Assembly (NCBI GenBank): GCA_029776465.1
Contig: JAKOTC010000218.1
Coordinates: forward strand, 1-14,646
Length of the DNA stretch: 14,646 bases
Direction: 5' to 3'
Origin: Bacillota bacterium
GTDB taxonomy: Bacteria; Bacillota; Clostridia; Oscillospirales; JAKOTC01
How positions within the stretch are numbered: position 1 is the stretch's first letter; each line of letters starts with the position of its first letter. Under the pieces are notes generated by a model. The model was not told where the DNA came from and did not search any database. It saw only the letters and a program-made list of their open reading frames with translations. Positions 8,519 through 10,154 of the stretch are shown here, one piece after another. Position numbers and translations under genes: made by a program.

Positions 8519-8902
8519 CTACTCGTCTTTGAGATCCTTAAGAGCTTTGACAACTTTTAAGGCCTGGATTAAATCTTCCGGGGTTAAATCCGGATAGGCG
8601 GTAAAAATGATTTTGTAGTTTGGGTTTTGAGTGATCTTTTTTATAATATCCATGGTTTCACGGTCGATGACGATGGAATTTCCCTCCGGGTCATGGACCG
8701 TTGTTTTTTCGTCGTTCATCAGATAGCCTACGGATACGTTGAAATATTGGGCCAGAATCTTCAGCTTTTCGGCGGAGGGCTTTTGCTTGCCGCTCTTCCA
8801 CTGGGAGAATAAAGCCTGTGAAATGCCGGTGTCTTTGCTCACCGATGCGGGAGTCAGTCCCTTTTCTTGGATTAATTTAAAAATATTCTCAACAATACCC
8901 AT
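8519..8902 (-). CDS. XRE-family helix-turn-helix transcriptional regulator
   Basis: DNA-binding regulator of 127 residues. The N-terminal 65 residues form a Cro/C1-type HTH domain: IFKLIQEKGLTPASVSKDTG (helices 1-2), the recognition helix ISQALFSQWKSGKQKPS (about 27-43), and the typical KLKILAQYFNVSVGYLMN end. The C-terminal half has no recognised domain; it contains a short beta segment (NSIVIDRE) and ends in a charged helix, KALKDLKDE, that could dimerise. It starts at ATG 8902 with a modest AAAGG 10 or so bases upstream. The gene points away from a large dyad (8952-9000) and a + strand promoter, a layout typical of a repressor that controls its own promoter and a divergent transcript. Here that divergent transcript appears to be a non-coding RNA. 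This link is inference. Confidence 0.9.
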   Translation of the reverse strand: MGIVENIFKLIQEKGLTPASVSKDTGISQALFSQWKSGKQKPSAEKLKILAQYFNVSVGYLMNDEKTTVHDPEGNSIVIDRETMDIIKKITQNPNYKIIFTAYPDLTPEDLIQALKVVKALKDLKDE

Positions 8903-8951
8903 TGTATCACAGCCTTTGGTACAAAGTCGACAAAAACGAAGACAAACAACT

Positions 8952-9000
8952 AACTTAAGTTTTCTTAATTCGTGTATTGAAAATTAAGATAACTTAAGTT
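8952..9000. promoter_or_regulatory. Large operator-like dyad upstream of the XRE regulator
   Basis: The 19-base arms 8952-8970 and 8982-9000 are inverted copies with one mismatch around an 11-base spacer. Each arm contains the palindrome AACTTAAGTT and a CTTAATT element. The right arm covers part of the -35 and the whole spacer of the promoter at 8977-9005. Position, symmetry and neighbourhood suggest a binding site for the adjacent XRE protein. Confidence 0.7.
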
Positions 9001-9005
9001 ATAAT
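8977..9005 (+). promoter_or_regulatory. Sigma-A promoter reading into the probable small RNA
   Basis: TTGAAA (8977-8982) and TATAAT (9000-9005) are separated by exactly 17 bases. The predicted start is about 9012. It overlaps the dyad at 8952-9000, so a protein bound there would block it. Confidence 0.8.
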
Positions 9006-9011
9006 ATTTAC

Positions 9012-9228
9012 AGACATAAAAAATATTCAAAGGAGTACAAAAAAACTGGCCTGCCCGATGCAAGCTACATTATTGAATTTAACCCCATTTTTATTGTACT
9101 CCATCGGGCAGACGATGTCAACGCCGCATTACACATATTCCAAGATTATACCATCTTATTGCTGGTGTGTTTTGGCGTACTCTTTTGCGTATTCCGGGCG
9201 GTTTTATTGAATAACCGCCTTGTTTTTA
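9012..9228 (+). ncRNA. Probable unrecognised small RNA with an H-type pseudoknot
   Basis: A strong promoter, a terminator about 215 bases later and extensive pairing in between support a discrete RNA. Four perfect complementary blocks are interleaved: GGAGTACAA (9032-9040) with TTGTACTCC (9094-9102), and CTGCCCGATG (9051-9060) with CATCGGGCAG (9102-9111). The order A-B-A'-B' is a pseudoknot. Next comes a three-tier hairpin: ACGCC/GGCGT (9121-9125, 9174-9178), ACACAT/GTGTGT (9131-9136, 9165-9170) and AAGAT/ATCTT (9142-9146, 9153-9157). The terminator hairpin ends it. I do not recognise the family. A 50-codon reading frame (9058-9210) runs through it without a nearby ribosome binding site, so a coding role is less likely but open. 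Confidence 0.6.
9197..9228 (+). terminator. Intrinsic terminator of the probable small RNA
   Basis: GGCGGTT (9197-9203) pairs with AACCGCC (9213-9219) and is followed by TTGTTTTTATG. No protein-coding gene precedes it closely on this strand, which supports an RNA gene upstream. Confidence 0.85.
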
Positions 9229-9282
9229 TGAGCAAATATCGCAAATGTAAAAACATGTATTCGATTACATAAATATCAAGAT

Positions 9283-9390
9283 TTCAATTGAATAACCAGA
9301 TAAAGGCAAACTTATTGAAAAATAAGGACGCAAAGCTACGGGTCTAAGGTGGGTGCACTATGATCGCCGGGTTGCCAGGTGAATTTGAAG
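9283..9390 (+). promoter_or_regulatory. Class I cyclic-di-GMP riboswitch (GEMM-I) aptamer
   Basis: The hallmark GEMM-I strings occur in order: AAAGGCAAAC, a perfect 6-bp helix CTTATT/AATAAG capped by a GAAA tetraloop (9317-9320), GGACGCAAAGC, GGGTCTAAGGT, then TGCACTATGATCGCCGGGTT with the closing strand. TTCAATT (9283-9289) and the AATTTGAA region (9382-9389) can form P1. In the family, c-di-GMP sits where the helices meet and stabilises the fold. A terminator follows 12 bases later, so the switch acts at transcription on the chemotaxis operon starting at 9492. No clear promoter is visible just upstream. Confidence 0.93.
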
Positions 9391-9401
9391 GATAGGATGA
9401 A

Positions 9402-9440
9402 AGCTATGGCAACAGGTTTGCCATGGCTTTTTGTTTTTTC
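9402..9440 (+). terminator. Expression-platform terminator of the c-di-GMP riboswitch
   Basis: AGCTATGGCAA (9402-9412) pairs completely with TTGCCATGGCT (9418-9428), with one G-U pair, followed by TTTTTGTTTTTTC. Its 5' arm (TGGCAAC, 9407-9413) is also exactly complementary to GTTGCCA (9371-9377) at the 3' end of the aptamer. This offers a competing antiterminator when the aptamer is unfolded. Confidence 0.93.
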
Positions 9441-9491
9441 CATTGCAGCAAATAAAAGGAATTTGATTCTGAGCCATCGGAAGGGGTACAT

Positions 9492-9854
9492 ATGACAAAG
9501 GTATTGATAGTGGACGATGCTGCATTTATTCGGGCGCAGCTGAAGCAATTGCTTGTGGCCAATGACTTTGAGGTTGTGGGCGAGGCGGGCAACGGAATAG
9601 AGGCGCTCAAAAAGATTCGGGAGCTAAGGCCGGACATTGTCACGCTGGACATTACCATGCCCGAAATGGACGGCATCGAGTGCATGCAGGAGATCAAAAA
9701 GATGGGCTGCAATATGCCCGCCATCGTCATGGTTTCGGCCATGGGGCAGGAGCCCTTTGTTCAGAAGGCCATCCTCAACGGGGCGAAGGGCTTTATTGTC
9801 AAGCCCTATAAGCCGGAAGTGGTTTTGAAACAGCTGAATAAGTTCAGAAAGTGA
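9492..9854 (+). CDS. cheY: CheY-like single-domain response regulator
   Basis: Stand-alone receiver domain of 120 residues. In chemotaxis systems CheY carries the phosphoryl signal from the kinase CheA to the motor or another target. All active-site residues are present: the acidic pair D8-D9 (IVDDA), the phosphorylated D53 (TLDITMPEMDG), the switch Ser82 (MVSAMG) and K104 (VKPYKP). There is no output domain. ATG 9492 has AAGGGG 5 bases upstream. It is the first gene after the c-di-GMP riboswitch and begins an operon with a receptor, a CheW-type coupler and CheB. Whether it acts on a flagellar motor, on type IV pili or on transcription cannot be decided here. Confidence 0.93.
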   Translation: MTKVLIVDDAAFIRAQLKQLLVANDFEVVGEAGNGIEALKKIRELRPDIVTLDITMPEMDGIECMQEIKKMGCNMPAIVMVSAMGQEPFVQKAILNGAKGFIVKPYKPEVVLKQLNKFRK

Positions 9855-9884: not shown

Positions 9885-10154
9885 ATGCTTCAATTGACGG
9901 ATGAAGAGCTTTTGAGGTACATCAAAACCTGTGAGACGGAGGTCAATACCCTGGCGGAAATCCACAAGGTTCTGATTCAAAACAATGTAAAGTGCAATAT
10001 CGAAGATCTTCGCCAGAAGATCTTTCTTTTGCACCGGGACGGCTATATCGGAAATGAACCCACCCCCGACGGCGTGAATATGTACTACATCATTTTCAAC
10101 CCCGAGGACGCTGCGGCCCGGCAGGCGCAGCCCGAGGTTTCCCGGGAAATATAG
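9885..10154 (+). CDS. Small protein of unknown function in the chemotaxis operon, winged-helix-like
   Basis: Protein of 89 residues that I do not recognise. AAAGGAG sits 7 bases before ATG 9885, and the gene lies 30 bases after cheY and about 60 bases before the receptor gene, so it is a true operon member. It is predicted mostly helical. The segment NTLAEIHKVLIQNN, then IEDLRQKIFLLHRDGYIGNE, then PTPDGVNMYYIIF reads like two helices followed by a beta-hairpin, the pattern of a small winged-helix domain. This is a judgement from sequence pattern only. No membrane segment or signal peptide is present. It might regulate the operon or serve as an adaptor to the receptor or CheY. Confidence 0.8.
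   Translation: MLQLTDEELLRYIKTCETEVNTLAEIHKVLIQNNVKCNIEDLRQKIFLLHRDGYIGNEPTPDGVNMYYIIFNPEDAAARQAQPEVSREI

Follow-up and report, generated by a model that had tools for sequence, protein, structure and literature searches.

A phage CI-type repressor gene and an opposing structured RNA that may form a compact face-to-face switch

What might a predicted, strongly folding RNA do beside an XRE regulator gene? The question arose from a sequence-only reading of a 14,646-base stretch of DNA from a Bacillota bacterium (hereafter the window), which proposed that positions 9012-9228 encode a new small RNA class with a perfect H-type pseudoknot and that the RNA might regulate the neighboring chemotaxis operon. 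The answer that we favor, with a probability of about one half, is that the locus is a compact phage-type face-to-face switch, the 'lytic' transcript of which would be a structured non-coding RNA antisense to the leader of the repressor. The features on which the argument draws are collected in Table 1.

Table 1. Positions of the elements discussed, in window coordinates
Feature	Position	Strand	Remarks
XRE gene, 127 aa, phage CI-type repressor	8519..8902	-	Pfam HTH_3, 1.2e-9
Palindrome AACTTAAGTT, candidate operator 1	8952..8961	.	elsewhere in the assembly only at 8991
RNA promoter TTGAAA(8977)-17-TATAAT(9005)	8977..9005	+	11/12 consensus; start assumed at ~9012
Palindrome AACTTAAGTT within ATAACTTAAGTTAT, candidate operator 2	8991..9000	.	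touches the -10 of the RNA promoter
Structured RNA, ~215 nt	9012..9228	+	fold z -5.1; second copy z -4.2
Block conserved between both copies	9025..9126	+	71/99 columns identical (hand-made core alignment)
Alternative long-range helix, 5' arm	9028..9038	+	pairs with 9177-9187, 11 bp
Helix A, 5' arm GGAGTACAA	9032..9040	+	pairs with 9094-9102, perfect 9 bp
Terminator-like hairpin GCTTGC-ATCGG-GCAGGC-CAG-TTTTTTT	9039..9065	-	directly past the opposing start; kept in the second copy
Helix B, 5' arm CTGCCCGATG	9051..9060	+	pairs with 9102-9111, perfect 10 bp
Opposing promoter TTGACA-17-TACAAT toward the XRE gene	9093..9121	-	11/12; start assumed at ~9086
Helix A, 3' arm TTGTACTCC	9094..9102	+	partner 9032-9040
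Helix B, 3' arm CATCGGGCAG	9102..9111	+	partner 9051-9060
Intrinsic terminator of the RNA	9196..9228	+	stem 9196-9203/9213-9220, 9-nt loop, then TGTTTTTA
Neighboring c-di-GMP-I riboswitch before cheY, outside the unit	9295..9379	+	Rfam RF01051, 82.5 bits; terminator follows (element to 9431)

The predicted plus-strand RNA and its crossing helices

Promoter and terminator lie where the sequence-only reading had placed them. The promoter is the sole plus-strand sigma-70 site in the window that matches at least 11 of the 12 consensus positions (spacers of 16-18), and the terminator was missed by our terminator scanner because its 9-nt loop exceeds the scanner limit of 8. The two perfect helices of 9 and 10 bp are likewise present; they cross and have base 9102 in common, and the judgment that chance would hardly produce them held up, as none of 3000 dinucleotide shuffles contained crossing helices of 9 and 10 bp. 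Of these shuffles, 265 had crossing pairs of at least 7 bp and 360 had any single helix of at least 9 bp. The stretch 9012-9235 (224 nt) has a predicted folding energy of -66.5 kcal/mol (z -5.1), with none of 200 shuffles equally low. That the helix A region has an alternative partner was also borne out, since the 11-bp helix of 9028-9038 with 9177-9187 belongs to the predicted minimum-energy fold. The three-tier hairpin described downstream fared less well: tier pairings are possible (e.g., 9121-9126/9173-9178 and 9131-9136/9165-9170), but these two go unused in that fold. By our own reasoning the crossing helices do not make a classical H-type knot, because the 10-nt linker between A and B would have to span both helices (about 19 bp) and the two 3' arms adjoin without a loop.

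A second copy and the search for relatives

No known family could be assigned by the sequence-only reading, and Rfam agreed. At gathering score Rfam 15 gave no family in 9012-9228, the sole family in the window being RF01051 at 9295-9379, and a lax search of 8900-9500 gave, besides RF01051, only sub-threshold matches with E values of 0.18 and up. One further copy of the element was found within the window's own assembly (contig C172, locus L010, positions 729-806; 78% identity over 78 nt, E 5e-9), and this copy also matched no Rfam family at gathering score. The assembly has 1.27 Mb in 286 contigs and is 56% complete; both copies come from it alone, and the assignment of both contigs to one organism depends on assembly binning. 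The proposed 'new class' rests on these two copies in one assembly.

A BLAST search of 98 relatives (E<=0.01) gave, beyond the two places in the genome itself (G000), only short matches in six genomes. We then used a covariance model built from both copies (R1), with strict filters, on overlapping order, class and phylum samples of 394, 391 and 398 genomes that included G000. The order (E<=0.1) and phylum (E<=0.01) samples returned both known copies only. Three extra matches in the class sample (E<=0.1), with E values of 0.02-0.09, were judged to be due to chance from their alignments and the reading frames of one of them. An exact-pattern search of genome contigs, which misses variants of the exact word, gave 18 stretches, none with the rest of the element and most of them coding in appearance; viral contigs gave 6 and 3 matches, none fitting R1. 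Comparison of the RNA with phages gave three short weak matches and with plasmids none. Among 30 XRE loci of the order (both copies included), 20 were scanned for the core word and 16 upstream regions were inspected with no further copy found, nor did an R1 scan of 14 order XRE loci beside both copies find one. R1 was also run on three phage loci and on eight further HTH_3 loci from the same genome, and its single weak match (E 0.06, L084) was not accepted. In a literature search for an XRE-linked RNA of this kind none was recognised, although one may still be in print.

The second copy carries its own signals: a 10/12 promoter (ATGATA-16-TATAAT) with TATAAT at L010:710-715, nearly the same distance from AAAGGAG as in the window, and a different terminator (stem L010:846-854/864-872) about 150 nt after TATAAT. 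Its fold has a z of -4.2, with 0 of 200 shuffles equally low. Like the structured unit in the window, which the sequence-only reading had rightly set beside an XRE regulator, it adjoins a divergent XRE gene, the XRE proteins of the two loci being 29% identical. Its other neighbor is, by our own reading of the frame, a paaK-like gene with its own TTGAAA-17-TATACT promoter. Because the second copy adjoins an XRE gene and a paaK-like gene, not chemotaxis genes, the constant partner of the element in these sequences is the XRE gene, and the specific link to the chemotaxis operon that had been suggested is not supported.

This neighborhood bears on a quite improbable rival reading, in which the RNA belongs to the leader of the chemotaxis operon: transcripts from the promoter at 9005 would extend past 9228 to take in the c-di-GMP-I riboswitch as well as cheY, making the RNA an attenuator stacked before the riboswitch. 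Although the riboswitch and its terminator come directly after the RNA, and a 7-bp helix of 9051-9057 with the terminator arm 9195-9201 is possible, the copy beside the paaK-like gene and its separate promoter does not fit such a role, and the competing pairing of that copy uses other arms (815-822 with 864-871), so that no attenuator design is shared. From the RNA terminator to the riboswitch (9190-9300), no sigma-70-type site of at least 9/12 was found on the plus strand, as this reading would have it, but another sigma factor could serve the operon. Classical antisense attenuation of the downstream gene was rejected, as the competing pairings differ between the copies. The riboswitch resembles the RNA in being an adjacent leader element on the same strand; it is a separate element, and 9012-9228 does not match RF01051. 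Within the riboswitch region an antiterminator could form between GTTGCCA (9371-9377) and TGGCAAC (9407-9413), so that the riboswitch probably acts on the chemotaxis operon as an OFF switch. Further along, an 89-aa frame (9885-10154) between cheY and the gene of a methyl-accepting protein matched nothing in Pfam or NCBIfam at E<=0.001.

Comparison of the two copies did not uphold the pseudoknot as the defining fold. Helix B is kept, its extended form retaining 11 of 12 pairs with one compensatory change of CG to UA and two one-sided changes; helix A shrinks from 9 bp in the window to 5 bp, only TACAA/TTGTA being retained, and the consensus fold of both copies has a nested helix in its place. 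Hence, for two sequences only, the covariation check came out in favor of helix B and against helix A, and the conservation of both crossing helices expected of an H-type pseudoknot was not found. The 9028-9038/9177-9187 helix has no counterpart of equal length in the helix list of the second copy. The consensus fold of the core is unusual on the plus strand (z -3.6; 3 of 1000 column shuffles as low) and less so on the minus strand (z -2.2; 25 of 1000). The first 44 core columns, from CAAAGGAG to ACAT, are identical at 39 positions, and the other conserved blocks are TATTGTA, ATC and TCAAC.

A conserved protein reading frame, which could have explained the conservation, was not found between the copies. 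Open frames run through the window RNA, but the ATG frame has 50 codons in the window versus 5 in the second copy, the other frame stops after LPDASYILITH in the second copy, and a protein search with the 50-aa frame found no homologue. A protein-coding explanation was rejected on these two grounds, the lack of a frame conserved between the copies and of a homologue of the 50-aa frame. The opposing transcript has no frame common to the copies that could encode an Apl, Cox or Cro protein. The frames differ and by our own reading none resembles a signal peptide, as a peptide pheromone of the pCF10 type would require. Nor was there the conserved small hydrophobic toxin frame of a type I toxin-antitoxin system with its antisense RNA (50 versus 5 codons, no homologue). 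A separate observation is that a strong Shine-Dalgarno-like AAAGGAG(G) lies near the RNA 5' end in both copies (window 9029-9035; L010 741-748); ATG, GTG and TTG are absent at the normal distance from it, and the shared ATG 22 nt downstream is in an unconserved frame.

The same frames enter into a highly improbable reading of the locus as a degenerate phage immunity region that lacks a present function, or as a small reading frame under decay. The XRE gene of the second copy has one in-frame stop (TGA), which together with its different palindromes suggests that this copy may be decaying, and the open frames through the window RNA would suit decay of a small reading frame. Yet those frames are not conserved and the 50-aa one found no homologue, the XRE gene of the window runs open from end to end and is on record in a second sequence with 2 of 127 residues different, and the signals stay in register while the XRE proteins have diverged to 29%. 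The 4.9-kb contig of the second copy has two in-frame stops, one in the paaK-like frame (L010 1296-1298) and one in the XRE gene, for which decay, strain mixture or sequencing error could be responsible. Flanking direct repeats, a mark of mobility, were sought at both copies: the window had no 9-base repeat and the second copy had one AT-rich 9-mer.

The putative opposing promoter, the repressor and its candidate operators

The sequence-only reading had overlooked the apparent phage-repressor nature of the XRE gene as well as two putative minus-strand signals that oppose the RNA, a promoter and a terminator. The opposing promoter (9121-9093) is the sole minus-strand sigma-70 site of at least 11/12 in the 14,646 bases. 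In register with it the second copy has TTGATT-17-TACAAT (L010:829-801, 9/12), and in register with the window hairpin it has AGCTTGC-ATCAG-GCAGGCT-TGG-TTTTTT. As a terminator the window hairpin is weak, with a 6-bp stem that ends 3 nt ahead of the T run; it is a candidate for an attenuator of the XRE leader or for the end of a 45-nt RNA. With transcript starts set by consensus at 7 nt past the -10, the XRE leader would run antisense to the RNA over its first 75 nt in the window and its first 73 nt in the second copy. The conserved block spans from just beyond the minus-strand terminator to just past the opposing -35.

When the columns of the two-copy core were shuffled, an aligned promoter scoring 11 and 9 arose in 1 of 5000 shuffles, one scoring 9 and 9 in 62, an aligned terminator in 3, and a 9-and-9 promoter plus terminator in none, figures that overstate significance in that the criteria were chosen post hoc from the sequence and the A run is broken up by shuffling columns. 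Neither an aligned promoter nor an aligned terminator is present on the plus strand of the core. Mononucleotide shuffles of the 305-nt locus (n=3000) gave 48 sites of at least 11/12 in total, never on both strands of one shuffle. Facing promoters alone are not special, because a crude scan of 30 XRE loci, one of which was too short to judge, found facing sites of at least 10/12 at three: the window and two loci with a divergent reading frame. The second copy (10 and 9) falls below that threshold. A divergent frame of at least 40 aa with a Shine-Dalgarno-like motif was present at 18 of the loci, neither copy of the element being among them. An alternative XRE promoter, TTGAAT-18-TATTAT (9030 to 9001, 9/12), would not overlap the RNA, and the second copy also has a 9/12 alternative site at about the same place (L010 742-714). 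Two other XRE loci, L033 and L021, combine strong matches to facing promoters with a divergent frame and are possible protein-coding counterparts of the switch.

The conserved block can also be read in another way. In an alternative that we rate as unlikely, the RNA is a trans-acting small RNA under control of the XRE repressor, the block GGAG...ACAT with its A run and GCAAGCUACAU binds target mRNAs or a protein, and the opposing promoter is incidental. The near identity of the first 44 core columns, the plus-strand consensus fold and the presence of a promoter and a terminator in both copies would all suit such an RNA, as would the arms of the extended helix B, which differ between the copies at 1 of 12 positions in the 5' arm and at 5 of 12 in the 3' arm, a pattern expected of a binding segment. 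However, the opposing terminator lies in that very block, and a search of the assembly on both strands for GATGCAAGCTACAT with at most one mismatch gave no further place and therefore no long target for that part of the RNA.

By its sequence the XRE protein is phage CI-like and its gene a CI-type repressor gene. At E<=1e-8 there were 30 homologues, the top one (P0001) being 98% identical (2 of 127 residues different) and the remainder 38-56% identical over 43-93% of the query. One is named 'Repressor protein CI [Caudoviricetes sp.]', and seven of the 30 sit on 36-38 kb contigs. Searches with the homologue P0020 gave 3 loci in viral contigs and 75 phage records; at a viral-contig repressor found in this way, frames that we read as ImmA-like and integrase adjoin, and a small HTH-like frame is divergent. 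The window's own XRE protein found no relatives among 56 candidate stretches of viral contigs, and neither phage genes nor conjugation genes were seen among the window's reading frames. Two AACTTAAGTT palindromes flank the -35 of the RNA promoter. In the 1.27-Mb assembly AACTTAAGTT occurs at 2 places, both at this locus (the control, the same letters backwards, occurs at 3), and this confinement suggests a dedicated local repressor. The second copy has other inverted repeats in place of AACTTAAGTT.

The proposed switch and its relation to known systems

Given these elements, the face-to-face switch would work as follows. The CI-type repressor would be made from a promoter inside the structured RNA gene and pointing against it (starts at ~9086 and ~9012, 75 nt shared). 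Repressor bound to the AACTTAAGTT palindromes at the RNA promoter would turn that promoter off. Should the RNA promoter win, its transcription would interfere with the repressor promoter, and the RNA, being antisense to the repressor leader including the terminator-like hairpin, would cause the repressor to fall. Mutual shut-off of the two sides could give two stable states, with the RNA in the position held in phages by cro, apl or cox. We infer repression, interference, bistability and all of the transcripts; the two promoter matches, the palindromes, the conserved leader hairpin, helix B and the repeated XRE pairing can be read directly from the DNA. The switch is argued for by the facing promoters, their shared register in the second copy and the repeated pairing with XRE genes despite 29% protein identity, where promoters and operator are consensus matches and the two copies come from one 56%-complete assembly.

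In P2-like phages the lytic and the lysogenic promoter are described as facing each other at a distance of 40-60 bp, and the repressor has its operators over the lytic one (PMC7498355). Our locus resembles the pR/pL arrangement of phage 186 described there in that a CI-type repressor and opposing promoters, here assigned by consensus, face each other at short distance, with candidate operators at the opposing, lytic-like promoter; it differs in that the assumed starts are about 74 bp apart (PMC7498355). The opposing transcript would also stop after about 215 nt, and it has no frame conserved between the copies and hence no Apl, Cox or Cro. On pCF10 the regulator promoter on the opposite strand is described as giving the poly-U Anti-Q RNA, and a short RNA ends at an inverted repeat (PMC7117660). 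Our locus shares with this prgQ/prgX region, as predicted features, a regulator promoter on the strand opposite the RNA, a poly-U antisense transcript from that promoter and a short RNA that stops at an inverted repeat, although the distance is 220 bp there versus about 74 bp here (PMC7117660). It also differs in that no conserved peptide frame was found at our locus and the XRE protein has only 127 aa. PrgX is larger and binds peptides. Convergent transcription with an antisense RNA has been modelled as bistable (PMC3134472). The opposing transcript at our locus differs from those of the P2-like phages, of pCF10 and of the modelled convergent pairs in that it folds strongly and carries no frame common to the copies.

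An extension of the switch that we consider unlikely is that a structured non-coding RNA replaces Cro in a minimal heritable switch, silencing the repressor by opposing transcription and by pairing with the leader attenuator, that the cassette sits at separate chromosomal sites, and that in the window it may also set the feeding of the c-di-GMP-controlled chemotaxis operon.

The locus illustrates that a striking perfect pseudoknot can mislead, as the second copy conserves one helix together with signals on the opposite strand. Phage switches serve as models for bistable gene control, and the repressor's opponent in the phage and plasmid cases compared here is a protein- or peptide-coding transcript. 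If the face-to-face switch is real, a chromosomal CI-type repressor opposed by nothing but a folded RNA would reveal how few parts such a switch requires, and antisense pairing and promoter interference could be tested directly in a system with no second protein.
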